From the NCBI GenBank assembly GCA_947567625.1, contig CANONN010000011.1:1-64000 (forward strand): DNA of 64,000 nucleotides, given 5' to 3'. A program made the position numbers and the translations under genes. Numbering within the stretch: position 1 is the stretch's first letter; each line of letters begins with the position of its first letter. Under the pieces are notes generated by a model. That model was not told the origin of the DNA, did not search any database, and saw only the letters and a list, made by a program, of their open reading frames with translations. The stretch comes from an uncultured Roseburia sp. (GTDB lineage Bacteria; Bacillota; Clostridia; Lachnospirales; Lachnospiraceae). Shown here one piece after another: positions 23,712 to 45,176 of the stretch.

Positions 23712-23856
23712 AAAACTTAATCGTTTGTTCGATTTACATCTGTAAATTGTTGTGCTATGTTAAAAGCGGGTGTAAAAAGGAAGATAACATCGGCTGTCTT
23801 CTCTTACAATCCCCTGATTTGCCGTGACATATCCGCCGTCTCAATGGAGGAAGTCT

Positions 23857-28687: not shown

Positions 28688-28998
28688 CGGCAGGCGCAAG
28701 GAACAAAGCTAGAAGCTGCGCAGAAATGAGGGTAAGGATGGACGGGAAGAGATATCGGCTGCGCGCGGCAGCGGGGAGCTATTGGCTGCTCGATCTGTGG
28801 CAGGACGGCAGGGCGGCAAAGCCGCCGGTGGAGTTAAATGAGAGCGGTGCCATGTTTTGGGAGCTGATAGAGCAGGGTATGGACCTGCAGGAGATGGCGC
28901 TTTTTGTGAGTGATCATTACGGCATTGCGGCACAGGAGGCGAAGCTGGATGCCGAACAATTTATGGAAGGGTTAAAATCGGCGGGTATTGTGCTGTAA
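28684..28998 (+). CDS. PqqD-like peptide-binding protein
   Basis: A 104-residue frame overlapping the peptidase stop by four bases; an ATG at 28726 or 28738 (GGGTAAGG before MDGKRYRLRA) may be the real start. The remaining about 87 residues have the PqqD pattern: YWLLDLWQDGRAAKPPVELNESGAMFWELIEQGMDLQEMA, then a helix ending LKSAGIVL. PqqD-type domains present precursor peptides to modifying enzymes. No precursor is evident nearby. Its 3' end forms the first unit of a 38-base tandem repeat. Confidence 0.75.
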   Translation: MTAGARNKARSCAEMRVRMDGKRYRLRAAAGSYWLLDLWQDGRAAKPPVELNESGAMFWELIEQGMDLQEMALFVSDHYGIAAQEAKLDAEQFMEGLKSAGIVL

Positions 28999-29126: not shown

Positions 29127-31322
29127 ATGGAAATATTGTTGGTTGGCAGTGACAACGAGTTGATGCGGTCACTGATTAACAAGCTGAATAAAGAGGGTCA
29201 TCGCCCGTATGTTTTGACCGGAAACAAAAATCAGGTCGGCGCCTATAAAAATGCCTATGAGAGATATCGTTTTCCCTACGACAGCGATTGTCTGAAAGAG
29301 ATTTTTGACAGTGTAAAGCCCGATGTCACCATATTTTTGGGGGTGTATGACTATAACTTTGACTGGTCGGACCCGAGAAAAGAATCTGTGCGCTTTCTGA
29401 CGGCGCTGCAAAATATATTGACCTCTTTTTCTACCTTAAAAAAAGGCAGATTTATCTATCTATCTTCCGAGGAGGTGTATTCGCAGTCATATCCCAATGA
29501 TATACCGGAGACGGAGGAGACGTCGGCCATCAGCTTTAAGAGCGTGGCGATCACGCAGGGAGAGGAGGTCTGCCGCAATTACAGGCAGACGATGGGAGTC
29601 GACACGGTAATTTTGCGCATGGACCATCTCTATATGCTGCCGGACAAAGACCAGGGGGATAATCCGGTCGTCGTGGAGAGCAATATTTGCAGTAAGATGT
29701 GTGTGGAGGCCGTGCGCACCGGTCATATCCAGGCAAATGCAAACAAAAAGTTTTCGCTGTTGTATGTGGATGATGCGGTGGAAGCTCTCTACAAGGTGGT
29801 AAACGGCGTGGAGCTTAAGCTGGACTTATACCATATCTCCTCGGGTGAGCCGATCGACGAGATGAAGCTGGCCAAGATGATTCAGCGGGAGATGGGAAAC
29901 GGAGTGTCCATCATCGATAATACCGTGGGCAACGTCCTGCGGGTCGTTCTCTCCAATCACGCGTTTGCCAGTGAGTTTGGACTGACCATTTTTCATCATG
30001 TGGGTGACGTGATGGAGAAAATGGTCAGGTATGTTCAGAAGAATAGGAGCAGTTTTGTGCAGCTTGAGGACGTCGGAGAGGGCCGGAGAGGGCAGCTAAA
30101 GCAAAAGCTCCGCGTCATTGTCAATGCGCTGATTCCGTTTATAGAAAATCTCATCTGCTTTATCCCGTTTTTTATGTTAAATAACCGCGCAGTCGGCAGC
30201 CGCTATTTTGCAAATCTGGATTTTTATTTGCTCTATGTGCTGCTTTTTGCGATTGTGCACGGGCAGCAGCAGGCGACGGTTTCCGCCGTGCTCGCGGTTG
30301 CGGGTTATATTTTCCGTCAGATGTACCACCGCACCGGCTTGGAAGTATTGCTGGACTACAATACCTATGTGTGGATTGCCCAGCTCTTTATCCTGGGGCT
30401 TGTCGTCGGCTATATGAAAGACCGACTGCGCACCATACGCAATGAAACCAAGAACGAGGTCAAATATATGGAAAGCCAGCTCGACGATATCCAGGATATC
30501 AACACCAGCAACGTCCGCATCAAGAATATGCTGGAGGTACAGCTGGTCAACCAGAATGACAGTTTCGGCAAGCTGTATGAAATTACCTCCAGCCTCGACC
30601 AGTATGAACCGTCGGAGGTGCTGTTCTACGCCGCAGAGATATTGGCCAAGCTGATCGACAGCCGGGATGTGGCAATCTATACCGTCGCCAATCGCTCTTA
30701 CGCCCGCCTGTTTTCGGCGACGTCGCCAAGGGCCCGCGAGCTTGGCAACTCCATCGAGTACACGAAGATGGAAGATATGTACAATCTGATCAAAGAAAAG
30801 CGGGTCTATATCAATCGCAGCATGGACGCCAGGTATCCGCTGATGGCGGACGCCATTTTTGCGGAAGATGAAATGCAGCTGATTCTCATGGTGTGGGGTA
30901 TTCCGTGGGAGCGCATGACGCTCAGCCAGGCCAATATGCTGGTGATCATCGGCTATCTGATACAAAATGCGGTGCTGCGCGCCAACCGCTATCTGGAGGC
31001 GCTGGAGAATCAGCGCTACTTAGAGGGCACGCGGGTGCTCGGCGAGGAGGCGTTTTGCTCACTGGTCAAGGCTTATCTTACCGCCCGCAACAAAGGGCTT
31101 ACCGAGTGTACGTTCCTGAAAGTGGACATCGGCGCGCATGACATCGAAGAAGCCGGGACACAGCTGACAAAATTGATGCGGCAGTCCGATTACATCGGGC
31201 AGATGCAGGGAACTATTTATGTGCTGCTCTGCAATACCAATGCCGCAGATGCAGATTTTGTTATGAAGCGTTTTGCGAATATCGGTTATCAGGGTTATAT
31301 TCAGGAGGAGATGAATGTATGA
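29127..31322 (+). CDS. SDR epimerase fused to PelD-like c-di-GMP receptor
   Basis: A 731-residue protein behind GGAGGACAGG. Residues 1-290 form an extended SDR epimerase/dehydratase-like domain (start MEILLVGSDNELMRSL; YLSSEEVYSQSY), although the usual GxxGxxG and YxxxK motifs are not clearly kept. About 335-440 are four membrane helices, followed by a coiled coil, a GAF-like domain (about 470-630), and a degenerate GGDEF domain. There RQSD (685-688) matches the c-di-GMP inhibitory-site RxxD and QGTIY (694-698) replaces GGDEF. This is PelD architecture with an added epimerase. It should switch on polymer synthesis when c-di-GMP is bound. The next gene overlaps by four bases. Confidence 0.85.
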   Translation: MEILLVGSDNELMRSLINKLNKEGHRPYVLTGNKNQVGAYKNAYERYRFPYDSDCLKEIFDSVKPDVTIFLGVYDYNFDWSDPRKESVRFLTALQNILTSFSTLKKGRFIYLSSEEVYSQSYPNDIPETEETSAISFKSVAITQGEEVCRNYRQTMGVDTVILRMDHLYMLPDKDQGDNPVVVESNICSKMCVEAVRTGHIQANANKKFSLLYVDDAVEALYKVVNGVELKLDLYHISSGEPIDEMKLAKMIQREMGNGVSIIDNTVGNVLRVVLSNHAFASEFGLTIFHHVGDVMEKMVRYVQKNRSSFVQLEDVGEGRRGQLKQKLRVIVNALIPFIENLICFIPFFMLNNRAVGSRYFANLDFYLLYVLLFAIVHGQQQATVSAVLAVAGYIFRQMYHRTGLEVLLDYNTYVWIAQLFILGLVVGYMKDRLRTIRNETKNEVKYMESQLDDIQDINTSNVRIKNMLEVQLVNQNDSFGKLYEITSSLDQYEPSEVLFYAAEILAKLIDSRDVAIYTVANRSYARLFSATSPRARELGNSIEYTKMEDMYNLIKEKRVYINRSMDARYPLMADAIFAEDEMQLILMVWGIPWERMTLSQANMLVIIGYLIQNAVLRANRYLEALENQRYLEGTRVLGEEAFCSLVKAYLTARNKGLTECTFLKVDIGAHDIEEAGTQLTKLMRQSDYIGQMQGTIYVLLCNTNAADADFVMKRFANIGYQGYIQEEMNV

Positions 31323-32374
31323 GGAAAGTGATTTTCTTTTTCCTGATTTTGTTTTTCAACGCCCTGATTGCATTTCTTTATCTTATTTTCGGGCTTTTGC
31401 GGGCCGGAAAACGAAAGAAGAAGAGACGGGGAACCGGGGGTGTGCCCGCCGCAGCGGAAGGATTGGCGGAGACGCAGGATGGGGAAGGAGAGGACAGCAG
31501 GCAGAAAGCCGCGGACGGGCGGAAAATCAAGCAGGAAGCCGCGGACGGGGACAAGCGTGAGGGCAGGGCGGCGTATGTGATACGTTTTGTTGTGATGCTG
31601 TTGTGCCCGGTGGTGGGGATTCTGTTTTTTGGCGTCGGCCATCTGATGTATCTGTTTGTATTCCGAAAGGATGTGAACCTGGAGGATGTCGTGTTCAGCA
31701 AGGAGCGGGTGAAAACCAATGAGCGCGCCGACGAAGAGCGCGAGCGCAATATGGCCCCGCTTGAGGAGGCGATTGCGGTCAGCGACAAAGAGAGTCTTCG
31801 CAATCTGATGCTCAATGTCATCCGCGGTGATATCCAGAATTCGCTGGCAGCCATCTCACTGGCGCTCAATAGCCCGGATTCCGAGACTTCCCACTATGCG
31901 GCGTCCGTCCTTCAGGATGAGCTGAACAATTTCCGCGTCAATGTGCAGAAGCTGAGGCGGGAGATCGAAAAAGAAGAGGATGATGAGACGGATTGCGAAA
32001 AAACGCTGATTCCCTATATGAATAATGTGCTTGAACAGCGCGTTTTTACCGAAATGGAGCAGAAAAATATGGTGGAGCAGTTCGTGGAGACCGGGGAAGC
32101 GCTGTATCACAAGAACCGCTATCAATTGACGAGCCAGTATTATGAGTGGATATGCCTGCGCCTTCTGGATATCAGGGATTTTTCAAGGATGGAGCAGTGG
32201 TGCATCCGCGCGGCGGAGCAATATCCCGACGAGCTGTCAAGCTACACCTGTAAGTTAAAGCTTTACTTTACGGCGCAGCAGAGGGAGAAATTTTTTGAGA
32301 CGCTCGATGATTTAAAGCAGTCGAGCATTGTCATAGACAGAGAAACATTAGAATTGATACGAACCTTTAGTTGA
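31319..32374 (+). CDS. PelE-like membrane protein
   Basis: A 351-residue protein. Two membrane helices (about 4-25 and 86-110) flank a basic, repetitive loop. A cytoplasmic helical part (about 140-351) with TPR-like helix pairs follows (NSLAAISLALNSPDSETSHYA; HKNRYQLTSQYYEWICLRLL). Position directly after PelD, the start overlapping by ATGA, and the membrane-plus-TPR layout fit PelE, which joins PelD and the glycosyltransferase PelF at the membrane. Sequence similarity alone would be weak; the context carries the call. Confidence 0.78.
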   Translation: MRKVIFFFLILFFNALIAFLYLIFGLLRAGKRKKKRRGTGGVPAAAEGLAETQDGEGEDSRQKAADGRKIKQEAADGDKREGRAAYVIRFVVMLLCPVVGILFFGVGHLMYLFVFRKDVNLEDVVFSKERVKTNERADEERERNMAPLEEAIAVSDKESLRNLMLNVIRGDIQNSLAAISLALNSPDSETSHYAASVLQDELNNFRVNVQKLRREIEKEEDDETDCEKTLIPYMNNVLEQRVFTEMEQKNMVEQFVETGEALYHKNRYQLTSQYYEWICLRLLDIRDFSRMEQWCIRAAEQYPDELSSYTCKLKLYFTAQQREKFFETLDDLKQSSIVIDRETLELIRTFS

Positions 32375-32404
32375 GGTGACAGAGGACGCAGGGAGGTGAA
32401 GACA

Positions 32405-35029
32405 ATGTCCATGAATGTACTGACGATATTACAATTTTTGCAGATTTTGACCGTGTATCTGATTATGACGCTGCTGCTGCCGTCGGTGCTTCTATATTCC
32501 CACATCAAAAAGCTGAAATTTTCGGCCCGCTTTATGGTGTATCAGATGGTGGGGAATTTTTATATGATGAGCATTGTTTTCCTGTTGCAGCTGCTGCATA
32601 TCTCAAACCGCGTCACACTGATTTTGTTCACAGCCGTGCCTTACGGCGTGGCTTATGTGGTGCTCAAAAAAAGGCATCCGGTGAAGATGGCAAAAAAAGC
32701 GCTCAACAATGCCGAGCGCCTTGCGGGCGGCCAGTTTGGCAAACGCCTGTTTATGCGCCGCGTGAGGACGAAAGCGTTCCGGTCTCTTCGGCGCATGGGC
32801 AGGCGCTGGCTTAGAAGTCTCGGGAGAAATTTTTTCGATCTTGTGCTGGTGGCGGCCCTGACGGCCGGCCTGTGCTATGCCTATGGCTCGAATCTGCTCT
32901 TCCACTACGGCTATTGCGAATCCGATCTGCCGGTGCACAATTACTGGATCAATTATCTGAGCCAAAATAAAATATTTGTCGCCGGTATCTATCCGTTTGG
33001 ATTCCACTGCGTGATCTATTACCTGCACGAGGTGTTCGGCATTGCCACCTTTGTGCTGCTGCGCGTTTTTTGCTTTGTGCAGACGATCATGATTCACTAT
33101 ATGCTGCTGGCGTTTACCAAGAGCTGCTGCAAATCAAAATTTGCGCCCTATGTGGGCGTGTATATATACACGATGCTTGGCATTTTCGGCGAGAACACCT
33201 ATATCCGCTACCACGCGACGCTGCCGCAGGAGTACGGCATGTTGTTCATTCTGCCGTCGATTTATTTCCTGTTTGCCTTTTTTGAGAAGCGTGGGAAAAG
33301 AGAGAAAGAAGATTTCTGGTATCTGGCGGGTTTTGCCGTCAGCTTCAGTATGACGTTGTCAGCGCATTTTTACGATACGATGATAGCCGGGCTATTGTGT
33401 GTCGGCGTGGCGGTGGGCTATTGTTTTCGCCTGTTCCGCAGAAAATACTTTGGCAAGGTGATGCTGGCGGGCTTTTTGGCGATCGTGATCGCCGTCTTTC
33501 CCATGGGAGTGGCGTTTGCCATGGGAACGCCGCTTCAGGGGTCGCTCGGCTGGGGCCTAAACGTTATCATGGGCAGGAACAATAAAACCAACACCACGAC
33601 CACTACTACCACGGAGCGCGTGGAGGAGGACAGCGTGGAGGAGGACACGCAGGCCGGGGGCGCGGACACAGAAGCGGGGAGCGAGGTCATAGAGCCAGCG
33701 GAGAGTACAAAAGCAGGAAACCGGAGTGAGAATTCGCCGGAGGGAGAGAAGAGCGGAAGAAGCGAGCCGGCGGAGAGTTTAGAAGCGGACAGCCAAGCGG
33801 AGAGTACAGAAGCAGGAGATCAGAGTGAGAATTCGCCGGAGGGAGAGAAAAGCGGAAGAAGCGAGCCGGCGGAGAGCACGGAAGCGGACAGCCGACCGGA
33901 GAATACAAAAGCAGGAGCCCGGAGTGAGAATTTGCCGGAGGAGGACAGCACACAGAAAACGGCGCGAGCGGAATCGGAAAGCAAGCCCGGGGGTTCTGGG
34001 GCGGCAGCCCTCTCAGCGAAAGGGGCCGGAGTGCTTGTGGCGGCCGGGGGCGCGTCCTTTCCGCAGAAGATAGGAAATGTGCTAAGGCGCGCCTACCGGG
34101 GGTTCTGGGACGCTATGCGCATCTATGTAATCGGCGACAGTTATCCGGTATTTCAGTATGCGGTGCCGCTTTCTATGGCATTGCTGGCGCTGCTTGCAGC
34201 TATCTTCTTTTTGTTGCGGCGGACAGACTATGCGGCTCGTTTCCTCTCCATGAGCGCGGGGCTTGTGATGCTTGCCATATTGCAGGGCTCCTCGCGCATG
34301 GGGCTGCCGACCTTGATGGATGCGATTCGGACCTGTATCTTTTTCTCCTATGTCCTTGCGGCAGTGTGGGGAATGTGCGCGGACGGCATATTAGAGCTGA
34401 TTTTCGGCTGGTTCAAAAAAAAGTGGATGTTGCATCTTGCTTCTATGGCAGTGCTTGCGGCATTGATTGTCACGACGAGCCGGGCGGGGCTTTTGCGCCC
34501 TCTGCCTGACCGCAAAGCATTGCAGACCAATGATGCGATCCTTTGCCTGACGAATATTTTGCACGACAACGAAGATTTTACCTGGACGATCTGTTCGGCG
34601 AATGACGAGCTGCGCATGGGCGAAGATTACGGTTACCATTATGAGGTGCACACATTTTTAAAGGAAATGGAAAATAAAGGGTCGAGCGGAAAAATTATCA
34701 TTCCAACGCCCAGGGTGTACTTTTTTATCGAAAAAGTCCCGGTTACGTTCGCCAGGGCTTACGAGGGCGGCGAGCCCGTTGTGAGCGTGGATGCGGCGAC
34801 GATGCGTCTGCCGCTTAGCGTCGGTATCAGTATGTATAAAGGGAATAACCGATGGATTGAGATGTCCAGATTATATTATTGGGCGCAGAAATTTATGGAA
34901 ATATACCCCAATGAAATGACCGTATATTATGAGTCCGACAATTTTGTGTGTTACTGCGTGGAGCAGGATATGTACAGCCTGTTTAATTTCTCAATTGATT
35001 ACGGTTACAATATGCTGGGTACGCAGTAG
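32405..35029 (+). CDS. Large polytopic membrane protein with repeat insert (GT-C-like?)
   Basis: An 874-residue protein from the ATG at 32405 (GGGAGG eight bases before). It has about 14 predicted membrane helices, with a first loop containing CESDLPVHNYWI, an acidic motif reminiscent of GT-C glycosyltransferases. A soluble extracellular domain lies at the C-terminus. Between helices, about residues 395-555 form a low-complexity insert: a run of threonines, then Glu/Ser-rich repeats of 33 residues. I do not recognise the family with certainty. It sits between the PelE-like and DUF2194-like genes, where the known Gram-positive pel order has no such gene. Confidence 0.7.
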   Translation: MSMNVLTILQFLQILTVYLIMTLLLPSVLLYSHIKKLKFSARFMVYQMVGNFYMMSIVFLLQLLHISNRVTLILFTAVPYGVAYVVLKKRHPVKMAKKALNNAERLAGGQFGKRLFMRRVRTKAFRSLRRMGRRWLRSLGRNFFDLVLVAALTAGLCYAYGSNLLFHYGYCESDLPVHNYWINYLSQNKIFVAGIYPFGFHCVIYYLHEVFGIATFVLLRVFCFVQTIMIHYMLLAFTKSCCKSKFAPYVGVYIYTMLGIFGENTYIRYHATLPQEYGMLFILPSIYFLFAFFEKRGKREKEDFWYLAGFAVSFSMTLSAHFYDTMIAGLLCVGVAVGYCFRLFRRKYFGKVMLAGFLAIVIAVFPMGVAFAMGTPLQGSLGWGLNVIMGRNNKTNTTTTTTTERVEEDSVEEDTQAGGADTEAGSEVIEPAESTKAGNRSENSPEGEKSGRSEPAESLEADSQAESTEAGDQSENSPEGEKSGRSEPAESTEADSRPENTKAGARSENLPEEDSTQKTARAESESKPGGSGAAALSAKGAGVLVAAGGASFPQKIGNVLRRAYRGFWDAMRIYVIGDSYPVFQYAVPLSMALLALLAAIFFLLRRTDYAARFLSMSAGLVMLAILQGSSRMGLPTLMDAIRTCIFFSYVLAAVWGMCADGILELIFGWFKKKWMLHLASMAVLAALIVTTSRAGLLRPLPDRKALQTNDAILCLTNILHDNEDFTWTICSANDELRMGEDYGYHYEVHTFLKEMENKGSSGKIIIPTPRVYFFIEKVPVTFARAYEGGEPVVSVDAATMRLPLSVGISMYKGNNRWIEMSRLYYWAQKFMEIYPNEMTVYYESDNFVCYCVEQDMYSLFNFSIDYGYNMLGTQ
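33698..33950 (+). repeat. 99-bp in-frame tandem repeat
   Basis: GCGGAGAGTAC-type unit starts lie at 33698, 33797 and 33896, an exact 99-base period (33 codons), with about 2.6 units. Each unit encodes AESTxAGxxSENSPEGEKSG followed by RSEPAES. It encodes the acidic disordered insert of the large membrane protein and could change length by slippage or recombination without breaking the frame. Confidence 0.88.
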
Positions 35030-35046
35030 CCGGTTAATGGGGGTGG

Positions 35047-36903
35047 ATGATGGTATCCCGTAGAAATTTTTTCACGATCACGGTGATTATGCTGGTGATT
35101 GTCTTTATGTTTCAGATTCCCGAGGTCGTAAAAGACAAGGTGAATCATTACGATAAAAATGAATATGAAGAATTGGATGTCAGTGGTTTGGACAAGGCAA
35201 ACGCCCACAATGCGACCGCGGTTTCGGTAGAGCGGACGGGGAGATTTGTCGTTTTTATCGGCAGGCGCACGGACGGGGCGGGCGCCCTGGTGGGCGACTG
35301 GTGCGATTACACCAAGCGCTATGTGGAATATTACGATAAGGTTTCAGATTATAGACCCAGGGAAAACTTACAGCCGGAGGTGATACTGGTTGATGCGGAG
35401 GCGTTGCATGGAAGCGAGGACAGCCGCAATCTGCTGCAGCTGGCGGAGGACGGCAACGATTTGATTTTTTGCACGCTGCCCGACGTGGAAGAGCTTCAGA
35501 CCGATCAGGTGATGCGTAAACTTTTGGGGATACGTGAGATCGTTAAAAAAGAGGTAACGGTCGGTGGGATACGGCTGCTCGGCGGTTTCCTTTTGGGCGG
35601 GCAGAAAGACTACCAGCTCGGCGCCTCCACGGAGGAGACACAGCAGGATTTGGATTTGACGATGCCTTGGTATCGCGTATCTTCGGGCACAAAAAGTTAT
35701 ATGATGGGGCTGCTTGCGGAAAGCCCCAGTGACACAGAGTATGGGACGGAGGCCGACACGGAGGAGGAGTTAAAAAATGAAGACCTGCCGGCGATTATCT
35801 GGCGCAATAATGTAAACGGCTGTAAGGTTTTTGTAGTCAACGGTAATTATCTTAAGGACAATACGGGGCTGGGTTTTTTGAACGCCATGATGTCGGAGTT
35901 AAAGGCGTATGACATTTATCCTGTGATTAACGCCCAGAATCTGGTGGTGATCAATTTTCCTGATCTGGCGGACGAAAACGCCGGAGGGATGATGGAGCGT
36001 TACAGCCAGAGACTGAAAGCGGTTTACCGTGATATCGTGTGGCCGGGGCTGGTATCCGTAGCGCAGCAAAACTCGTTAAAGCTATCTCTGATGATTATGC
36101 CGCAGATGGATTATACGGATGATGTGGAGCCCGAGGGCGACACACTGATTTATTATATGAAGCTGTTTCAGGAGCAGGGAGCCGAGACCGGTCTTTCCGG
36201 CGTCTATGAGCAGGACAGCAGTCTCGATATCAAGCTGCGCATCGACACCTCCTTTTTTGGCGAGGTCGTGCCTGATTATGCGATCCTGTCGTTTTATCAG
36301 GGCAATATGACCAAAGAGGAAGTTGACGACGCCCTAGAGCGTGATATGCTTGCCAAAGTGCGGACCGTATTTACCGACTATCAGGCGACCCGCCCCCTGA
36401 TTTCCTATTGGAATCAATCGGTTCTAAGACAGAGCGGCATCACGGACGGCTACAACCATACCTTTGGGGACAACCTTAGGATGACAAGCATACAGACGGC
36501 GCTCGGCTATTCGACGATACAGGTGGACGTCAACCCCGTGGCATATCCGAGCAGCGACGGGGAGACATGGGAGAAATTGTCCAAGAAATTTGCCAGCAAT
36601 ACGGGAACTTATTGGAAGAACTATTCCTGTTTTGACAAAACGACGCTCGCCGAAAGCGACCTTAAGGTGCGGCGTTTTCTCGCGCTGGATTATGTGCAGA
36701 GGAGAGAGGGAAACGAAATACAGTTGGAGCTTCGCAATTTTGATCAACAGGCGAGCTTTATTTTAAGGACGCACGGCGAGGTGTTAGCGTCCGCGCAGGG
36801 AGCCTCCTTTGTAAAGATTGAGGATGGCGCTTATCTGATTGAAGCCGAGACAAACCGGGTGACGCTCAAACTGGAAGAGGAGTCGCACAGAACGTATTAT
36901 TAG
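35047..36903 (+). CDS. DUF2194-like protein in the PelA-deacetylase position
   Basis: A 618-residue protein with one N-terminal membrane anchor (about 7-26) and a large extracytoplasmic region. The middle part (WRNNVNGCKVFVVNGNYLKD...GLGFLNAMMSEL) is typical of DUF2194 proteins, which I recall next to pelF and pelG in Clostridia. In Gram-positive pel operons this position holds the PelA-type deacetylase. I do not see the TFDDG and HxxxH motifs of CE4 deacetylases, so either the enzyme is diverged or it only binds polymer. Starts at 35047 or 35050, behind GGGGGTGG. Confidence 0.65.
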   Translation: MMVSRRNFFTITVIMLVIVFMFQIPEVVKDKVNHYDKNEYEELDVSGLDKANAHNATAVSVERTGRFVVFIGRRTDGAGALVGDWCDYTKRYVEYYDKVSDYRPRENLQPEVILVDAEALHGSEDSRNLLQLAEDGNDLIFCTLPDVEELQTDQVMRKLLGIREIVKKEVTVGGIRLLGGFLLGGQKDYQLGASTEETQQDLDLTMPWYRVSSGTKSYMMGLLAESPSDTEYGTEADTEEELKNEDLPAIIWRNNVNGCKVFVVNGNYLKDNTGLGFLNAMMSELKAYDIYPVINAQNLVVINFPDLADENAGGMMERYSQRLKAVYRDIVWPGLVSVAQQNSLKLSLMIMPQMDYTDDVEPEGDTLIYYMKLFQEQGAETGLSGVYEQDSSLDIKLRIDTSFFGEVVPDYAILSFYQGNMTKEEVDDALERDMLAKVRTVFTDYQATRPLISYWNQSVLRQSGITDGYNHTFGDNLRMTSIQTALGYSTIQVDVNPVAYPSSDGETWEKLSKKFASNTGTYWKNYSCFDKTTLAESDLKVRRFLALDYVQRREGNEIQLELRNFDQQASFILRTHGEVLASAQGASFVKIEDGAYLIEAETNRVTLKLEEESHRTYY

Positions 36904-36960
36904 GCAGGAGATTTGGCGAAGCGACAGATCGGGGTTCGCCGTGCGGAAACGAGGATAGAG

Positions 36961-38418
36961 ATGGCAGGTTATTTAAAGGTCTGCATTGTGGCAGAGGGAT
37001 GTTATCCATATGTGGTGGGCGGCGTTTCCAGTTGGATTCACAGCCTGATTAAATCGTTCCCGGAAGTGGAGTTTATCTTGCTCACGATCGTGGCAAACCG
37101 CTCCTACCGCGGAAAATTCGTGTACGAGCTGCCGGAAAATCTGCTTGAGGTGCATGAGCTGTATCTGGAGGACGAGGACTGGTGCGCAGCCCGCAAAGAG
37201 AAGGGAAAACGATTTAAGTTAAACGAAAAAGAATACCAGGCGATGCGCAGCCTGATCTTGAATCAGGAAATCGATTGGCGCACGCTGTTTAAATTTTTCC
37301 GCAAGCCGGGTCTGTCGCTGAATGATCTGCTGATGGGCGAGGATTTCTTTAAGATTGTGTTGGATTGTTACAATTTAAATTATAGCCAGGTGGTATTTTC
37401 AGACTTTTTGTGGACGCTGCGTTCTATTTATCTGCCGTTGTTTCATACCTTAAAAATGGATGTCCCCAAGGCGGATCTCTACCACTGTGTCGCCACCGGA
37501 TACGCCGGGGTGCTCGGCAGTATGGCAAATTACCGCCATGGAAGCAGGCTGTTGATATCCGAGCACGGAATCTATACCAGAGAGCGCGAGGAAGAGCTGA
37601 TCAAGGCCAAGTGGGTAAAAGGAATCTACAAGAATATCTGGATTGAGCAGTTTCGCAAGATGTCGAAGCTTGCCTACGACAAGGCGGATGTGGTGACCAG
37701 TCTTTACGAGCACGCAAGAGAATTGCAGATTGAGCTGGGATGCCCGGAGGAAAAGACCGTGGTGACGCCAAACGGCATCAATGTGGAGCGGTTCGACGAG
37801 CTGGCGCCCAAGACAGAGGAGGACGAGGGGTATATCAATATCGGCGCGGTGCTGCGCGTCACGCCGATCAAGGACGTCAAGACGATGATTCAGGCATTTG
37901 GCTATGCCAAGGCCAGGCAGAAGAAATTAAAGCTCTGGATTATGGGGCCATATGATGAGGATGAAGAATATGCCGCAGAGTGTTTCGATCTGGTGGAAAC
38001 CATGCAGATTCGGGACGTGGTGTTCACCGGCAGGATTGACGTCAAGGACTACCTCGGCAGGATGGATATGACGATACTCACGAGCATCAGCGAGGGACAG
38101 CCCCTGACCATTTTAGAGAGCTATGCGGCGCATAAGCCGGTGATTGCCACGGATGTGGGCAACTGCCGCGGCTTGATCTACGGGGAGGGGGACGAGTTCG
38201 GGGCGGCGGGTATCCTGACCCACATTATGAATATTGAAGAGATCTCACATGCCATTTTAGAGCTTGCCAACAACACGGAGCAGCGCTTGCGCATGGGGGA
38301 GAACGGCTATCAGCGTTTAATGACAAAATATAAAATATCGGATATGAAAAAGACATATGACAAGATATACACCGATTTTGAGGAGGGGCTGGCGCGCAAC
38401 TGGGCCGAGGACTGGTAA
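36961..38418 (+). CDS. pelF: GT4 glycosyltransferase PelF
   Basis: A 485-residue cytoplasmic glycosyltransferase from MAGYLKVCIVAEG; the frame is open to a TTG at 36913, but family members begin a few residues before VAEGCYPYVVGGVSSWIH, which supports 36961. The N-terminal half has the PelF hallmark segment just cited and SEHGIYTREREEEL. The C-terminal GT-B half has NGINVERF, VLRVTPIKDVKTMI and the sugar-nucleotide site SEGQPLTILESYA. PelF polymerises the Pel chain from UDP-GalNAc in known systems. It lies between the DUF2194-like gene and pelG. Confidence 0.93.
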   Translation: MAGYLKVCIVAEGCYPYVVGGVSSWIHSLIKSFPEVEFILLTIVANRSYRGKFVYELPENLLEVHELYLEDEDWCAARKEKGKRFKLNEKEYQAMRSLILNQEIDWRTLFKFFRKPGLSLNDLLMGEDFFKIVLDCYNLNYSQVVFSDFLWTLRSIYLPLFHTLKMDVPKADLYHCVATGYAGVLGSMANYRHGSRLLISEHGIYTREREEELIKAKWVKGIYKNIWIEQFRKMSKLAYDKADVVTSLYEHARELQIELGCPEEKTVVTPNGINVERFDELAPKTEEDEGYINIGAVLRVTPIKDVKTMIQAFGYAKARQKKLKLWIMGPYDEDEEYAAECFDLVETMQIRDVVFTGRIDVKDYLGRMDMTILTSISEGQPLTILESYAAHKPVIATDVGNCRGLIYGEGDEFGAAGILTHIMNIEEISHAILELANNTEQRLRMGENGYQRLMTKYKISDMKKTYDKIYTDFEEGLARNWAEDW

Positions 38419-38508
38419 GTCCCCAAGTGGCATGAGGTGTGAAAAATAATTGTCTGCTTTGCGGGCAGGGATAAAAATTGGTTTTGCGACAGGAAAGGAG
38501 TAGAGGAC

Positions 38509-40011
38509 ATGGCTGGAATAGGGGTGAGACTGAACCAGATATTTGAAAAGAATTCGCTGATTTCCGATTTGATCGGCTTTGGCTACAGCACCGTGGTCAC
38601 GGTGGCGCCGATGTTTCTGGTAATCGGAGATATTCTTTTGATGGGAAAGGTGCTGGGATTGTCCGATGTCAGTTATGCGCCGCGCGAGCTGTTTTCCTGC
38701 ACGATATTGTATATTTTTATTTTTTCCCTGCTGACGGCGGCGCCCTTTAATGCGGTGCTCTCCCGCTATATGTCGGATACGATTTATGAGGACCGCTATG
38801 AGGATATTATGCCCTGCTTTTATATGGGCCTGCTGATGAACGTGGTGACGGCGTTTCTTTTGGGTGTGCCGTTCTGCCTGCATGAGGTTTTCGTCGGCAA
38901 GCTGGGCGTGCTCTATGTGTTTACCGGTTTTTGCGGCTATATGGCGCTCGTGCTCGTGTTCTATTCCATGCTCTACCTCTCGATCTGTAAGGACTATAAG
39001 AAAATCTCGGCGTTTTTCTTTGTCGGGATGGCGGTCGCCTTTTGCGTCGCCCTGTTTTTGCGCCTGGTATGCGCGCTTCCGGTCACGGATTCTATGCTCG
39101 CGGGGCTGGTCGCGGGATTTATTATGATCGCCTGCGAGGAGATTGCGATGATCAAGCGCTATTTTAAAAAGAACAGCGGCAGGTATCGGCCGGTGCTTAC
39201 CTATTTTAGAAAGTATTGGATGCTGATTGTCACGAATTTCTTTTATATATTGGGACTTTATGTACACAACTTTGTATTTTGGACCACAGATCTGAAAATG
39301 GTGGTGGCGAGCAGTTTTGTCTGCGCGCCGTCCTATGATTTGGCGAGCTGTATCGCTATGTTTACCAATATTTCCGCCACGGTAATTTTGATTTCAAGGC
39401 TGGAGATGAATTTTCATGAAAAATATAAGGGCTACTCGGAGGCCGTGATCGGAGGGCGGGGACTTGATATCCGCACCGCGCAAAAGCGCATGTTCCGACA
39501 GTTGGCGAGCGAGCTGATGACTTTGGCGCGCATACAGTTTATCATCTCCGTTGTAGTATTTTTGCTGTGTGTGGTATTTTTGCCGCAGTATGGTTTTTCG
39601 GGTCTGGTGATGCAGATTTATCCTTGTCTGGCAGCAGGTTATTTCAGCCTGTTTCTGATGTATTCGGCCATCATCTTTTTGTACTACTACAATGATCTGA
39701 CGGGTGCGCTCATGACCGCGACAATCTTTGTGGGCACGACGTTTGCGGTGAGCATCGTCGCCACAAGACTGCCGGAGGCTTGGTATGGCGTGGGTGTTGT
39801 CGCGGGTTCTCTGCTCGGCTGGTGCGTGGCGTATTTCCGTCTTCGCTGGGTGGAACGGAATATGGATGTGCATGTATTTTGTCAGGGAAGGCTGATTGAC
39901 TATGGCAAGGGAATCCCGGAGCCGTCGAAAGTCTACGATGTCAGAGAGGCGCGCAGGGAGGCCAGAAAAAGAGAGCGGGAAGCGGAAAGGATGGCGGAGA
40001 GCAGAAGATGA
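38509..40011 (+). CDS. pelG: Pel polysaccharide transporter PelG
   Basis: A 500-residue membrane protein with about twelve helices, related to the MATE/flippase fold. The start MAGIGVRLNQIFEKNSLISD followed by LIGFGYSTVVTVAPMFLVI is characteristic of PelG. It would carry the growing polymer across the membrane, together with PelD, PelE and PelF. AGGAAAGGAG precedes the ATG. The C-terminus is a charged coil. The next gene overlaps by four bases (ATGA). Confidence 0.93.
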   Translation: MAGIGVRLNQIFEKNSLISDLIGFGYSTVVTVAPMFLVIGDILLMGKVLGLSDVSYAPRELFSCTILYIFIFSLLTAAPFNAVLSRYMSDTIYEDRYEDIMPCFYMGLLMNVVTAFLLGVPFCLHEVFVGKLGVLYVFTGFCGYMALVLVFYSMLYLSICKDYKKISAFFFVGMAVAFCVALFLRLVCALPVTDSMLAGLVAGFIMIACEEIAMIKRYFKKNSGRYRPVLTYFRKYWMLIVTNFFYILGLYVHNFVFWTTDLKMVVASSFVCAPSYDLASCIAMFTNISATVILISRLEMNFHEKYKGYSEAVIGGRGLDIRTAQKRMFRQLASELMTLARIQFIISVVVFLLCVVFLPQYGFSGLVMQIYPCLAAGYFSLFLMYSAIIFLYYYNDLTGALMTATIFVGTTFAVSIVATRLPEAWYGVGVVAGSLLGWCVAYFRLRWVERNMDVHVFCQGRLIDYGKGIPEPSKVYDVREARREARKREREAERMAESRR

Positions 40012-40382
40012 CAGTGGCAGGCATTTTACGGTTGGTTGTTGTGGCGGAGGGAATGATATTGTTGATGATGGCGTTTTTGTCCTTTGTTTACCGAAAAATG
40101 ACAGAGGGCATAGCCTTAAGCTGGGGAGGCTTCGCCGCCATTTTGATATTGGCGGGGGCGGTGCCGGCCTTTGCGGGCTGGAGCAGTTCGATTCCCCCGG
40201 GGGCGGTGCCGGCCTTTGTGATTGTCACGGCCGCCACGCTGCTCGGCGTGTTTTATTTAAGCTGTGCCGTTTCGCAGCTGATTCGCAAGAATCAGGAGCT
40301 TGCGATGCATGTATCCCTGCTGAATCAGGAGAATGAGAGCATATTGGAAGAGCTACAGGCGATAAGGGAACGGGAGAAATGA
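40008..40382 (+). CDS. DUF2304-like small membrane protein
   Basis: A 124-residue protein with three hydrophobic segments (about 5-28, 36-58, 64-90) and a C-terminal coiled coil (IRKNQELAMHVSLLNQENES). The layout matches DUF2304 proteins, which often sit beside glycosyltransferases in surface-polysaccharide loci. It overlaps both neighbours by four bases, so it is translationally coupled. Function unknown. A short internal duplication of GGGCGGTGCCGGCCTTTG occurs at 40157 and 40201. Confidence 0.7.
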   Translation: MTVAGILRLVVVAEGMILLMMAFLSFVYRKMTEGIALSWGGFAAILILAGAVPAFAGWSSSIPPGAVPAFVIVTAATLLGVFYLSCAVSQLIRKNQELAMHVSLLNQENESILEELQAIREREK

Positions 40383-41581
40383 AAAAAAGTGTGCTGTTTG
40401 TGATCAATACATTGGGGCGTGCGGGCGCCGAGACGGCGATGCTGGAGCTATTGCGCCAATTCCCGAAAGAGCGCTATGAGGTGTCTTTGTATGTGATGTT
40501 GGGGCAGGGGGAGCTGGCGGCGGAACTGCCCGCGCATGTACATCTGCTGAATCCGACATTTTTGCAGACGTCGGTGCTCTCGGCCGAGGGGCGGCGTTTT
40601 ATGATGCGCACCGTGCGCAAAAGTTTTTTCCACAACGGCGGTATCGGGAAAAAGCTTGCAGGGCTGCTTTGCAATGGCTTTGATATGTTGCGCAAGAAGA
40701 GGGTGCAGTTGGATAAACTGCTCTGGCGCACCGTTTCGGACGGGGCGGATTACCCCGCGGAAGAATATGATCTGGCGATCGCCTTTTTGGAGGGAGCCGC
40801 GACTTATTTTGTGGCGGATCATGTGAGGGCCAAAAAGAAGGCCGCGTTTGTCCATATTGATTATTTGAGCGCCGGATATACCAGAAAGCTTGATCGGGGG
40901 TGCTATGACGTTTATGACCGAATCTTCGCCGTATCGCAGGAGGTGAGGGAGAGCTTTTTAGAATTTTACCCGGAATATAAAGACAAGACGGGAATCTTTC
41001 ACAATATCATCAACGCAGACCGGGTGAAGCGGGAGGCTTTGGAGGGGGAAGGGTTTACGGATGATTATGCGGGCGCCCGCCTTTTGACCGTGGGGCGGTT
41101 AAATTATCAAAAAGGTTACGACATTGCATTGCTGGCGTTAAAGCAGGTGAAAGAAAGGGGCTATGACGTGCGCTGGTATGTGCTGGGAGAGGGAGAAGAG
41201 CGGGAGAACATCGAGCGCCAGAGAAAAGCGCTGGGGCTGGAAACGGATTTTGTGCTCTGCGGAGCCAAAGAAAATCCCTATCCGTATTACAGAGAGTGCG
41301 ATATCTATGTGCATGCGTCGCGTTTTGAGGGGAAGAGCATTGCCATAGAGGAGGCCCAGATGCTGGGCTGTACGGTGATCGCTTCGGATTGTACCGGCAA
41401 CCGCGAGCAGGTTGTGCACGGGGAGGACGGCGTCCTGTGCGCGCTCTCTGCGGGGGCGGTCGCGGAAAGTATCATGAAGCTGCTTACGGATGCGTCTCTT
41501 CGGCAAAAGCTTGGGCGCGCGGCGGCGGGGAAACAGAGAAACAGGGAGAACGAAATGCATTTGCTGCTGGAATTAATGTAA
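40379..41581 (+). CDS. GT4-family glycosyltransferase
   Basis: A 400-residue GT-B enzyme. The N-terminal half opens with VLFVINTLGRAGAETAMLELL, a typical acceptor-binding loop. The C-terminal half has LLTVGRLNYQKGYDIALLAL and the donor site ASRFEGKSIAIEEAQMLG with the paired glutamates. It probably adds a sugar to a lipid-linked or polymer acceptor on the cytoplasmic side. It follows the DUF2304-like gene with a four-base overlap and precedes the GT2 gene by 14 bases. Sugar specificity cannot be told. Confidence 0.92.
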   Translation: MKKSVLFVINTLGRAGAETAMLELLRQFPKERYEVSLYVMLGQGELAAELPAHVHLLNPTFLQTSVLSAEGRRFMMRTVRKSFFHNGGIGKKLAGLLCNGFDMLRKKRVQLDKLLWRTVSDGADYPAEEYDLAIAFLEGAATYFVADHVRAKKKAAFVHIDYLSAGYTRKLDRGCYDVYDRIFAVSQEVRESFLEFYPEYKDKTGIFHNIINADRVKREALEGEGFTDDYAGARLLTVGRLNYQKGYDIALLALKQVKERGYDVRWYVLGEGEERENIERQRKALGLETDFVLCGAKENPYPYYRECDIYVHASRFEGKSIAIEEAQMLGCTVIASDCTGNREQVVHGEDGVLCALSAGAVAESIMKLLTDASLRQKLGRAAAGKQRNRENEMHLLLELM

Positions 41582-41595
41582 GGGGTGTCTTACTT

Positions 41596-42387
41596 ATGAG
41601 CGAGAGAAAACAAAAGGAAGTATTGATCATTATACCTGCCTATAATGAGGAAAAGAATATCACACATGTGCTGGAACAGTTGGAAAGCCCAGAGATTCAG
41701 TCGTTTGCAGATGTGCTGGTGATGAATGACGCCTCCTACGACAGGACCAACTGGATTGTCAAGGACCGCAAACATGTGCTGGTAACGCATGTGTTTAATC
41801 TGGGATACGGCAGTGCGCTGCAGCTGGGATATAAGTATGCCATCCGGCGCAATTACAGATATGTCATTCAGATGGATGCCGACGGGCAGCATGATGTGTG
41901 CAATATTCCCAAACTGTATGAGGCGCTTCGGGCGGCGGATGATGCGGGGAACACCCCGGATATCGTGCTGGCTTCCCGCTTTATGAAGGGAAGCTCGGCC
42001 TACCATACTTCCGGGGTAAAACGCTTTGCCTATCAGCTCTTTCGGCTCATGATACGCGTCGTCACGGGCAGGCACATCACGGACCCGACGACCGGGCTGC
42101 AGGGGCTCAACCGCCGCACGGTGCTCTACTATTCCAAATATAACCACTATGACGACAAATACCCTGACGCCAACATGATTATGCAGATGCTTCTGCTGGG
42201 ACTTGATATCAGGGAAATCCCGGCGGTGATGCATCCGCGCACCCAGGGAGTCAGTATGCATTCCGGGCTAAAACCGGTGATGTATATGATGCGGATGTTT
42301 TTCAGCGTTTTAGCGGTAATCTTCCGCATTAAAATATTTAAGATTGACACGAAGGAAAGTATATCGGATGAGCTTCATGAAACGTAA
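41596..42387 (+). CDS. GT2-family glycosyltransferase
   Basis: A 263-residue single-domain GT-A enzyme from the ATG at 41596 (AAGGGG about ten bases upstream); the longer open frame reads through the previous gene and is not real. Motifs: VLIIIPAYNEEKNITHVLEQL, NDASYDRT, and the metal-binding DADGQHD. It resembles dolichol-phosphate mannose synthase-like enzymes, which load sugars onto polyprenyl phosphate. That would supply a GT-C enzyme, and the large membrane protein at 32405 is a candidate user. The next gene overlaps its end by 20 bases. Confidence 0.92.
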   Translation: MSERKQKEVLIIIPAYNEEKNITHVLEQLESPEIQSFADVLVMNDASYDRTNWIVKDRKHVLVTHVFNLGYGSALQLGYKYAIRRNYRYVIQMDADGQHDVCNIPKLYEALRAADDAGNTPDIVLASRFMKGSSAYHTSGVKRFAYQLFRLMIRVVTGRHITDPTTGLQGLNRRTVLYYSKYNHYDDKYPDANMIMQMLLLGLDIREIPAVMHPRTQGVSMHSGLKPVMYMMRMFFSVLAVIFRIKIFKIDTKESISDELHET

Positions 42388-43765
42388 AAGTAAGCGGGAG
42401 TTTTTGGCAGCGCCGTTTGCCGAGAGCAGGGCGGTTCTTGACAACCCCTCGCGCGGCTGGTATCAGATTCACACTTTTTTGCTGGAGCGGGAGGTGGATT
42501 TTGACGAGCTGACATGGTCGCTTCAAAAGGAGGACAGACTGGCGCTTGTTTTTTTGCAGATCGGCGCCTTTCGCACGGCGCCGATCTCCGCAGAGGCGTT
42601 GGAGAGGCTGGCGAAAATCCTGTCATTTTTCAGAGAACATAACAAAGAGATGATCATAAGAGTCGCCTACGACAACGAGGGAAACGGCATCACGGCGGAG
42701 CCGGATTTTTTGGCGGAAATCGAGGGACATATGAACAGCATAGGCCCTTGTATCCGGCAGTTTGCGGACAGCATACTGGTGGCGCAGGGGCTTTTTGTCG
42801 GCAGCTGGGGGGAAATGCACGATTCTAAGTTTCTGGCGCAGGATAAGCTGAAGAGACTGGCAAGGACTTGGCGGCTGGCGCTTGGGGAGCAGATACCGGT
42901 CGCGGTGCGCACGCCGGGACAGTGGCGGCTGCTGTATCCGCCGGGGCAGGAGGCGGCGCAGACGAACACGGGCCTGTTTGACGACGGGATGTTTGCGAGT
43001 GTCAGCCATCTGGGCACATTTGGCGTCAAGTCCAGGGAGGAGGCGGCGTGGGAGGAACCCTGGAGCCCTGCTGTGGAGAGAGGCTTTGTGGCTGCGCTTG
43101 CCAGACATGTGCCCTACGGCGGGGAGGCGCTTGCGGCCGCGGATGAGACGGCAAAGCAGTATGACGCGCCAGCCGGCGTCGTGGAGGAAATGCGCGCGCT
43201 CGGCGTATCGTATTTGAATCGGGTCCATGACGCCCGAAGAATCGGGATGTGGAGAGAGCAAATCTGCCAGGCCGCCGATTTGGCGGCGGCTGGGCAGCAG
43301 AGTGAGTTGTGGCAGGGCGTTTCTGTTTTTGATTATATCGGCGCTCATCTGGGATACCGCTATGTCGTGCGCGGAGCGGTTTTTGTGGAGAAGAGAGAGC
43401 CGTATGTTTCCCTGCGCATAGAGAATACGGGTTTTGCGCCGTGCACGAGGGCGCTGGACCTCTATCTGGTGTTTGCGGAGGAACAAACGGCGGTTGGATT
43501 CGATGACGTTTCGCACGATGCGTCTGTGCTGGAGTTATGCGAAAGCGGGCAGATTGCAGGGACATACACGCCGGTTCCAGGAGAGCTGCATCGGCTTGGG
43601 CAAGGCTTAGAGACCACGCTGGAAGCGCCGCTGCCCAAGCTTGGCCCGGGAACCTATCGTCTATACCTGGCGCTGCGCCAAAAGGAAAGCGGGCAAACGA
43701 TTTATTTTGGCAACGAGCCCGTTGCCAGGCAAGTATATCTGGGGCGGCTTATTTTGCGACTGTGA
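42368..43765 (+). CDS. DUF4874/DUF4832 protein (cytoplasmic form)
   Basis: A 465-residue protein from MSFMKRKSKREF. The N-terminal block (RAVLDNPSRGWYQIHTF ... LVFLQIGAF) matches DUF4874 and the later block (SVSHLGTFG ... GAHLGYRYVV) DUF4832. The predicted fold is a TIM barrel similar to glycoside hydrolases, followed by a beta-sandwich. There is no signal peptide here, unlike its paralogue encoded on the other strand. The two genes are convergent and their ends overlap by 17 bases. A carbohydrate-related role is suggested by context only. Confidence 0.78.
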   Translation: MSFMKRKSKREFLAAPFAESRAVLDNPSRGWYQIHTFLLEREVDFDELTWSLQKEDRLALVFLQIGAFRTAPISAEALERLAKILSFFREHNKEMIIRVAYDNEGNGITAEPDFLAEIEGHMNSIGPCIRQFADSILVAQGLFVGSWGEMHDSKFLAQDKLKRLARTWRLALGEQIPVAVRTPGQWRLLYPPGQEAAQTNTGLFDDGMFASVSHLGTFGVKSREEAAWEEPWSPAVERGFVAALARHVPYGGEALAAADETAKQYDAPAGVVEEMRALGVSYLNRVHDARRIGMWREQICQAADLAAAGQQSELWQGVSVFDYIGAHLGYRYVVRGAVFVEKREPYVSLRIENTGFAPCTRALDLYLVFAEEQTAVGFDDVSHDASVLELCESGQIAGTYTPVPGELHRLGQGLETTLEAPLPKLGPGTYRLYLALRQKESGQTIYFGNEPVARQVYLGRLILRL

Positions 43766-45176
43766 ATGATAAGATCAGATAACCGTTTTCGGAGAGGCGC
43801 AGTGTGTTGGATAGCTTGATGTGGCGGCCTAGCGTCTCATCATACAATTGAAAATAGATATAATAACGGCCTTCCCCCAGAGCGCGGATGTCGATGGGAG
43901 CGTTTAAAGTGACGGTTTCGCCCGGCAGCCATGTCCTGGTGTCCGTTTCAAAGGGATAGGAGCCCAAAAGCCCGCCGGATGCGGATACGATGAAAGCCGT
44001 GGGAGTAAACGCGCGGTAGCCTGCCGAAAAGCCGCTGTTTTGCAGGGTCAGGGACAGATTGGCAGTCTTGTCGTGGAAGGTGTCAAAGCTCAGGGCGGCG
44101 GACAGCAGATCGTAGCGGTAACCCATGTGGCTGCCGATATAATCGTAGCCGTTTGTGCCCGCAAAACAGTCGTCCCCTTCGTAGGTGGAGGCGCGCCATT
44201 TGTCGAGCACGGCGGCGTCGTAGCCGCAGTCGAGATAGGAGACGTGCATGGCGGCAAGGTCTGTGACGGCATTGGCAAAGTCATTCAAGGGATTGTCGAG
44301 CACGACTTCGCCGCCGTTGGGCACATAGTTGCAGAGTGTATTCTGGAACGCGATCTCTTCCTCGCGCGTTCCCTTGTCGGTCAGTTTTTCGGCCATTTTG
44401 ATGGAGTTTTCCCCGTAAGTGCCAAGGTCGCTTGCGGAGCCCAGCATGCCGTCGTTAAATAGTCCAAGGCGCGCGGAGACGGAACCGGAAAAAGCCTCCT
44501 CCTCTTTTAGCGCCTCATAGGTGCCGCTTATGGCGCGCCAGTGGGCGGGTGTGCGCACGGAAAGAAAGATGGCGGGGTCCGTGACAGCGGCCAGATGTTC
44601 GGCCAGCATACACATGGTTTCCGCTGCCATGTAGTTGGAATTGTTCATCTCCCCGCAGTTTCCCACATAGATGCCCTGCAGGAGGTAGACGCAGTCTGTG
44701 TATTGATTGACGACGGCGGCGGTCTGGTCCATGTGCTGCAAAATGACCGACACGTCGGAAGGCTCCGTCTCTTTGGCCTTGCCGTTCCAGTCATAGAGGA
44801 AACGCAGAATCAGTTGATTGCCGTGCGACTGCCAGAGGGAGAGGATATCGGAGAGCTGTGTGAGGCCCTGCTCGCTGATGGCGGAGGCATTGTAGTCGCG
44901 CAGATTGATTTCCAACAGCACGAGCTCGTGGGGATACGCTGCCGCAGTCCGTTCCATGGCGTTAAGATCGGGCGGCGTCTCGTCGGAGAGCGCGTAGCCA
45001 AAGATCTGATACCATCCCTGATAGGGGTTGTCTAAGGCGCGGTCCGTGGCGCCAAAGCGCTCCGGCTCGACCGTCAGCGTAAAATAATAGCGTTGATAGA
45101 GAAAAAAGACGACGCCGCTGACGGCGGCAAGCAGCACGATTATCGACAAAATAAGAATAACGGATTTTTTTTTCAT
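43749..45176 (-). CDS. DUF4874/DUF4832 protein (membrane-anchored form)
   Basis: A 475-residue paralogue of the preceding protein. It begins with a membrane anchor (about 5-27, VILILSIIVLLAAVSGVVFFL), then DUF4874 (RALDNPYQGWYQIFGY ... LVLLEINLRDY) and DUF4832 (ASDLGTYG ... GSHMGYRYDLLSA). So one form faces the outside and one stays inside or is not exported by a signal peptide. It is the only minus-strand gene within the polysaccharide locus and has its own promoter: an extended -10 TGCTATAAT lies on the minus strand near 45226. Confidence 0.8.
   Translation of the reverse strand: MKKKSVILILSIIVLLAAVSGVVFFLYQRYYFTLTVEPERFGATDRALDNPYQGWYQIFGYALSDETPPDLNAMERTAAAYPHELVLLEINLRDYNASAISEQGLTQLSDILSLWQSHGNQLILRFLYDWNGKAKETEPSDVSVILQHMDQTAAVVNQYTDCVYLLQGIYVGNCGEMNNSNYMAAETMCMLAEHLAAVTDPAIFLSVRTPAHWRAISGTYEALKEEEAFSGSVSARLGLFNDGMLGSASDLGTYGENSIKMAEKLTDKGTREEEIAFQNTLCNYVPNGGEVVLDNPLNDFANAVTDLAAMHVSYLDCGYDAAVLDKWRASTYEGDDCFAGTNGYDYIGSHMGYRYDLLSAALSFDTFHDKTANLSLTLQNSGFSAGYRAFTPTAFIVSASGGLLGSYPFETDTRTWLPGETVTLNAPIDIRALGEGRYYIYFQLYDETLGRHIKLSNTLRLSENGYLILSFTVAK

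Follow-up and report, generated by a model that had tools for sequence, protein, structure and literature searches.

Pel-type loci of Roseburia and its relatives with an inactive deacetylase homologue and a predicted GT-C glycosyltransferase

What does a Pel polysaccharide operon make when its deacetylase homologue no longer has an active site? The question is raised by a locus of an uncultured Roseburia sp. (GCA_947567625.1, contig CANONN010000011.1), contained in a stretch of 64,000 nucleotides that is called the window and provides all coordinates given here. At a rough probability of one in two, the locus encodes a synthase of the Pel type, gated by cyclic di-GMP (c-di-GMP), whose exported polymer would be glycosylated instead of deacetylated. 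New in it are a lineage of DUF2194 deacetylase homologues devoid of the active site and the identity of a neighbouring, inserted gene as a glycosyltransferase (GT) of the GT-C fold.

The original prediction, drawn from positions 29127 to 40011, had described a Pel-like operon in the gene order PelD, PelE, an inserted gene, a DUF2194-like gene, PelF and PelG. All of these open reading frames are found in place and on one strand (+), and the profile searches that it proposed for PelF and PelG match both strongly, far over the cut-offs. The DUF2194-like identity stands as well, the loss of its active site having gone unmentioned; to the inserted gene the prediction had given no identity. The core of the locus consists of the following features:

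29127..31322, + strand: PelD, with a degenerate short-chain dehydrogenase/reductase (SDR) part (about residues 1-300), membrane helices, a GAF domain and a degenerate GGDEF domain (Pfam Epimerase 49.1 bits, cut-off 20.9)
31179..31190, + strand: RQSD, codons 685-688 of PelD, predicted c-di-GMP I-site (residue conservation)
31319..32374, + strand: PelE, a positional assignment (with weak similarity to its counterpart in CotH-type loci)
32396..35029, + strand: inserted gene, membrane glycosyltransferase of predicted GT-C fold (AlphaFold2 and Foldseek, invariant residues)
35047..36903, + strand: DUF2194 protein, PelADA homologue without active site (PF09960 81.9 bits, cut-off 30.4)
36913..38418, + strand: PelF polymerase (NF038011 371 bits, cut-off 100)
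38509..40011, + strand: PelG exporter (PF16933 504 bits, cut-off 29)

The frames of pelD and pelE overlap by four bases, and PelE matches no curated model in the scans of the window's proteins. The PelF frame opens at TTG, with a likely start 16 codons downstream; that of the inserted gene opens at GTG, and an ATG a few codons downstream is a better fit to the relatives.

Loss of the active site in the DUF2194 protein

The DUF2194 protein belongs to the PelADA deacetylase family: PF09960 gives 354-568 bits for five copies of the active type, which DUF2334 matches too, as does Polysacc_deac_1 in two cases. Copies from related loci (n=117) are scored at the eight residues named in a study of Bacillus cereus PelADA (PMC13254593; this and the other papers are cited from the accessible parts of their text). 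Residue states are read from MAFFT columns; where the sequences diverge, an individual column may be out of place, and isolated residues can coincide with the active set. Pieces of fewer than 500 residues are unscored, including the two pieces of locus L075, where the first shows HGYNH; the copies of L087 and L090, below the similarity threshold, are added by hand.

In the copy of the window, the Asp-Asp pair, the HxxxH motif and other named zinc and catalytic residues are lost, which rules out an ordinary deacetylating PelADA. The HxxxH motif and the Asp-Asp pair are likewise kept in none of the 96 copies from loci with the inserted gene. All eight residues persist in 19 of the 21 copies for which the fetched stretch holds no inserted gene, and the two exceptions, L056 and L081, have that gene further downstream. 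Nine PelG stretches were fetched from other families of the phylum; eight have DUF2194 (L194 is too short to tell), and all eight copies carry HGYNH with no inserted gene found nearby. Overall, the active site is lost in 98 of 98 copies accompanied by the inserted gene, which stem from 97 loci (L055 has two) and do not represent 98 independent genomes, since six locus pairs across the two collections have an identical DUF2194 in the compared part; the zinc motif is kept in all 27 copies where the gene was not found. An H-x-x-x-H within residues 301-420 occurs in 0 of the 98.

When the DUF2194 proteins without active site are compared in 11 close pairs, the ratio of nonsynonymous to synonymous substitution rates (dN/dS) lies at 0.06-0.18 for 10 and is not computable for one, and this purifying selection indicates that the protein is maintained. 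Because the catalytic residues of PelADA are missing, the locus does not count as a canonical pelDEADAFG operon and is placed in a pel-derived lineage. A tandem duplication in the order GT-C, DUF2194, GT-C, DUF2194 is seen at L055:2091-11438 and suggests that the two proteins work as a pair.

Of 299 genomes in the window's family, 53 have PelG, the genome of the window among them. Besides the window's own there are 56 PelG places, from which 48 stretches were fetched, eight being left out as contig ends, fragments or weak matches (G025, G228, G090, two of G092, two of G214, G177). The fetched loci fall into two types: the published CotH type and, set against it, the type of the window, which comprises pelD, pelE, a gene of about 800 codons, DUF2194, pelF, pelG, DUF2304, GT4, GT2 and DUF4832, the GT-C gene standing at the locus end instead in some cases. 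In the PelG tree the 20 CotH-type rows lie on one side (support 100/100) and the other 29 on the other, and the PelF tree agrees; in the latter (61 rows, rooted with PelF-like proteins) the loci with an inactive deacetylase form one derived clade (100/99). The extra genes are kept along with the inactive DUF2194 across genera. One contig, holding L056 and L220, carries a window-type locus with an acquired CotH gene and the GT-C gene further downstream.

The inserted gene and a putative glycosylation module

The inserted gene has no Pfam family of its own, either in the scan of the window or in that of its relatives. Within its family, Pfam yields stray matches only, none of them shared (PMT_2 in 1 of 17, E 0.0024); the PMT_2 and YfhO models make no call on the window's protein, and profile searches of the PDB with the family return nothing useful. 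D177, H181, W184, H204, R271, E279 and H324 are invariant in 64 sequences, and D177, W184, R271, E279 and H324 remain so in 17 more distant ones. A reading of hydropathy and charge places the D177-H204 loop outside. The AlphaFold2 model is good, with a local confidence (pLDDT) of 83, falling mostly below 50 at residues 397-548, and a predicted template modelling score (pTM) of 0.84. When it is compared with the PDB by Foldseek, the top 19 matches are GT-C enzymes (STT3 chains, DPY19, Pmt1-Pmt2, AftA, PglB and AglB), with a best E of 2.8e-4, two values below 0.001 and probabilities of 0.95-1.00, dropping to 0.2 or less from rank 20. All 19 are taken as members of the GT-C superfamily, and 9n9j_I as an STT3 chain, partly after PMC8035078. 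The predicted structure settled the identity of the gene product as a GT-C fold; the product is a membrane enzyme, and its probable role is to attach extra sugars.

Two further families were weighed as identities of the inserted gene. The YfhO type finds no support (probability 1.5), and the match to one DUF6541-like protein is weak (probability 14.8, E 0.0018), even though it aligns the D and H of the key loop. When genomes are searched for DUF6541, the inserted gene is the sole match here, at 18.5 bits against a cut-off of 29, and other carrier genomes (e.g. G011, G012, G019) give none. A chance or strain-specific insertion is ruled out by conservation across loci and genera: among the best 80 of 132 relatives, the fetched named loci have pel genes in 79 of 80, the exception (L110) being a short contig, and their named carriers include Roseburia porci, Fusicatenibacter saccharivorans, Anaerobutyricum hallii and Blautia luti. 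In other families the relatives of the GT-C gene are distant and stand beside PelF-like and GT2 genes; PelD, PelE and DUF2194 were not found there. One such cluster, L198:2038-18947, encodes PelF-like, DivIVA-like and PelG-like proteins, two GT-C relatives, a GT2, a polysaccharide deacetylase, a MurJ-like protein and an HD-domain protein, and is possibly another system of the PelF/PelG type.

The co-directional gene run extends beyond 40011 to about 43765, and a further gene follows on the opposite strand:

40008..40382, + strand: DUF2304 protein, GacJ-like small membrane protein (PF10066 28.7 bits, cut-off 25.5)
40379..41581, + strand: GT4 glycosyltransferase (Glycos_transf_1 109.6 bits)
41596..42387, + strand: GT2 glycosyltransferase of the polyprenyl-phosphate sugar synthase kind (nearest solved relatives)
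42344..43765, + strand: DUF4874-DUF4832 protein (Pfam 145.9 and 126.8 bits)
43749..45176, - strand: second DUF4874-DUF4832 protein (Pfam 166.9 and 179.4 bits)

The DUF2304 frame shares four-base overlaps with pelG before it and with the GT4 gene after it. The solved structures nearest to the GT2 are a dolichol monophosphate mannose synthase (E 1.7e-9) and then sll0501 (E 1.1e-4), presumably GtrB. According to PMC8327497, DUF2304 is a typical feature of GacJ-like proteins, and by analogy the set of GT2, DUF2304 and GT-C protein has the make-up of GacI, GacJ and GacL, a known kind of glycosylation module. Among the 78 well-covered window-type loci, PelD and PelE are present in all, DUF4832 proteins in 76 and the GT4 in 73; GT2 and DUF2304 are each found in the same 73. 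None of the 28 loci with an active-type deacetylase has GT2 or DUF2304.

SIR_1591, which bears a DUF4832 domain, is an active hydrolase of Streptococcus intermedius Pel aggregates (PMC12345266). The shared domain argues that the chain made here is still Pel-like, and the protein at 42344..43765 is, by this analogy, likely a glycoside hydrolase of the polymer.

PelD and its predicted c-di-GMP site

The original prediction had placed an SDR epimerase-like domain on PelD, which the Epimerase match bears out, together with a family profile that reaches solved SDRs with E 5.9e-11. Epimerase is matched in 60 of 60 PelD relatives and the DUF4118 membrane region in 43 of them. The prediction further suggested that this part may supply or sense a uridine diphosphate (UDP)-sugar, of which the supply is not supported: Lys138 replaces the catalytic Tyr, Ile142 the Lys, the GxxGxxG motif is gone, and a separate gene of the genome is a true galE (473 bits, cut-off 262). 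Cofactor and catalytic motifs are altered in the rest of the window's family too. Among 130 aligned PelD rows, which exclude those of L055, L076 and L145, the Tyr-Lys pair is kept in 2 and GxxGxxG in 3; the keepers all lie outside that family, one being a standalone SDR protein (L191:3435-4469). Such losses make the SDR part look like a dead fold. A PelD from a different family of the phylum (L187:6480-8717) keeps both GxxGxxG and Tyr-x-x-x-Lys, and there the fusion may be an active enzyme.

The Pfam model of PelD, PF16963, has no match in this genome; it has none in 14 control genomes either, so its silence here is uninformative. The model is blind to these proteins, and annotation that relies on it will miss such PelD, a failure likewise stated for B. 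cereus (PMC7112168).

At the C-terminus, RQSD is confirmed at residues 685-688, with QGTIY in the place of GGDEF. The c-di-GMP I-site predicted there is well supported at the sequence level. The RxxD motif is kept in 127 of the 130 rows, the three exceptions being two rows without that region and one (L159) with Tyr; a further arginine, R715, is kept in 123. The window's own C-terminus has no Pfam match. When 37 diverse PelD C-termini are compared, up to 11 match GAF and 6 match GGDEF, and four columns are invariant, two of them being the Arg and Asp of RxxD. Their joint profile finds GGDEF structures among the solved ones (best E 2.3e-5) and aligns RxxD onto the RQSD of 3ign (E 1.6e-4). Profile and conservation thus describe a PelD with GAF, degenerate GGDEF and an RxxD I-site. 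The genome encodes c-di-GMP enzymes, with 22 GGDEF and 11 EAL matches, and Rfam at gathering scores returns nothing in the window, hence no c-di-GMP riboswitch there. In B. cereus, PelD binds c-di-GMP with a dissociation constant of 103 nM and needs the same motif (PMC7112168).

Both the fusion and the I-site are already known. The SDR-PelD fusion with altered cofactor and catalytic residues is published for clostridia, its SDR judged inactive (PMC7112168), and PelD proteins have been sorted into four groups by their SDR and GGDEF content (PMC12345266).

A proposed pathway and its alternatives

The locus resembles the pelDEADAFG operon of Bacillus cereus ATCC 10987 in the order PelD, putative PelE, PelADA homologue, PelF and PelG and in the RxxD of PelD (PMC7112168, PMC13254593), but differs in the degenerate SDR on PelD, the missing active site of the PelADA homologue, the inserted GT-C gene and the DUF2304, GT4, GT2 and DUF4832 genes that follow. 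With the pel clusters of Streptococcus and Clostridium, which include CotH, a polyphosphate polymerase, DUF4956 and DUF4832, it shares a degenerate-SDR PelD and a DUF4832 protein (PMC7112168, PMC12345266); unlike them it has no adjoining CotH set, possesses a glycosylation module and, unlike the streptococci, keeps the GGDEF part. The module itself is like GacI-GacJ-GacL and other multi-component transmembrane glycosylation systems, with a GT2 putatively of the undecaprenyl-phosphate-sugar type, a DUF2304 membrane protein and a GT-C transferase (PMC8327497, PMC8035078), whose acceptors, as given there, are teichoic acids, rhamnans and other wall polymers and not a PelF/PelG polymer. Whitfield et al. 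noted pel genes in larger clusters of Roseburia and left unclear whether these work or make another polymer (PMC7112168). With GT1 and GT2 genes in the legend of S7 Fig, those clusters are probably the same kind of locus; the part of the text covered mentions neither an inactive deacetylase nor a GT-C enzyme. The literature searched, with its limited coverage of subscription journals and hence no proof of absence, gives in titles and in the text covered no description of such a deacetylase or of the GT-C module.

In the proposed pathway, c-di-GMP at the I-site of PelD would switch PelF on, which would polymerise a chain of the N-acetylgalactosamine type for export by PelG, the SDR part of PelD being retained as a dead fold for binding or assembly. 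Outside, the PelADA homologue would remove no acetyl groups and would only hold or guide the chain. The GT2 (41596-42387) and DUF2304 protein (40008-40382) would load a sugar onto undecaprenyl phosphate, a putative flippase would turn the lipid-sugar over, and the GT-C enzyme (32396-35029) would add the flipped sugar as a side group to the emerging polymer, which the DUF4874-DUF4832 proteins may trim or release. We tentatively suggest, as quite possible, that this constitutes a second route of finishing, in which a non-catalytic deacetylase guide and GT-C decoration lead to a neutral, branched, Pel-derived surface polymer in many Lachnospiraceae.

Several observations weigh against glycosylation of a Pel chain. 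The TM-scores by query of the GT-C matches are low (0.20-0.35), and the two best matches are STT3 chains of oligosaccharyltransferases, which move whole oligosaccharides. Since the inactive deacetylase and the GT-C gene mark one clade, the link between loss and gain amounts to one event and not to many. For Pel, P. aeruginosa and B. cereus reportedly depend on a catalytically active deacetylase (PMC13254593). Five loci with the GT-C gene (L056, L065, L156, L158, L170) lack GT2 and DUF2304 in the fetched stretch, L081/L219 has the GT2 with no DUF2304 match, and L095 and L119 have the module with no DUF2194. In the CotH-type loci L073, L074 and L077, an active PelADA is followed by a second DUF2194 copy (outside the 117) without the zinc motif, and the GT-C gene is missing from the part that was fetched.

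An unlikely product is a polymer of the cell wall or capsule that is unrelated to Pel, for which PelF and PelG would have been recruited together with the GT4 and GT2 to build a heteropolymer, the GT-C protein being a ligase or oligosaccharyltransferase that joins it to wall, lipid or protein. The STT3 folds and the extra GT4 and GT2 genes in 73 of the 78 well-covered loci would fit such a product, as would the distant GT-C relatives of other families that adjoin PelF-like genes where PelD, PelE and DUF2194 were not found, and for the larger clusters of Roseburia Whitfield et al. had capsule or teichoic acid in mind (PMC7112168). It is at odds with the joint retention of PelD, PelE, PelF and PelG, PelD and PelE being in every well-covered locus, and with the prevalence of DUF4832 proteins, to which kind the enzyme digesting S. 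intermedius Pel belongs; nor was any ligase family recognised. Gene order and the strong PelF and PelG matches would also suit an ordinary Pel operon that makes the partly deacetylated, cationic polymer, with the deacetylase encoded elsewhere and the extra genes as mere neighbours. This is improbable, given that the deacetylase is inactive in every scored copy of the window type and that the neighbours are kept together across genera.

Supply or interconversion of a UDP-sugar by the SDR part of PelD has good SDR matches on its side, and the L187 protein implies that an active fusion can exist; the residue changes here and across the family, the separate galE and the inactive state published for clostridia make it highly improbable. 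That two proteins lack their catalytic residues might point to a decaying relic, which is more improbable still: no reading frame is broken, and in close pairs each of the genes tested shows a dN/dS clearly below 1, one GT2 value of 0.43 coming from a pairing of non-matching genes. Glycosylation of a Pel-type polymer is accordingly preferred, and it hints that common gut microbes may finish a surface polysaccharide in a different way. A whole lineage of gut bacteria keeps the Pel machinery with an inactive deacetylase under purifying selection, despite the need reported elsewhere. This makes testable the question, posed in PMC7112168, of whether the loci of Roseburia are functional and produce Pel. 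A previously unannotated gene is recognised as encoding a GT-C enzyme, and the enzymes to be assayed are named.

Some loci show further peculiarities. PelF carries a tail of more than 300 residues rich in repeats such as VNQAVNNAV at L095:4840-7266 and L119:5769-8345, and in L073, L074 and L077 PelG lies on one open reading frame of about 1090 residues that is apparently matched by the CotH profile too. In the window, a secreted-looking protein with four Big_2 immunoglobulin-like stretches is encoded at 23824-24882. Just upstream of pelD (28247-28998), a Peptidase_S24-like protein precedes one of the PqqD family, a combination reminiscent of peptide-modification loci. Beyond both DUF4832 genes (45356-46366) lies a Stealth-type protein with CR1 to CR4, usually a capsule sugar-phosphate transferase, and such a protein is also encoded near some related loci (L051, L066, L067).

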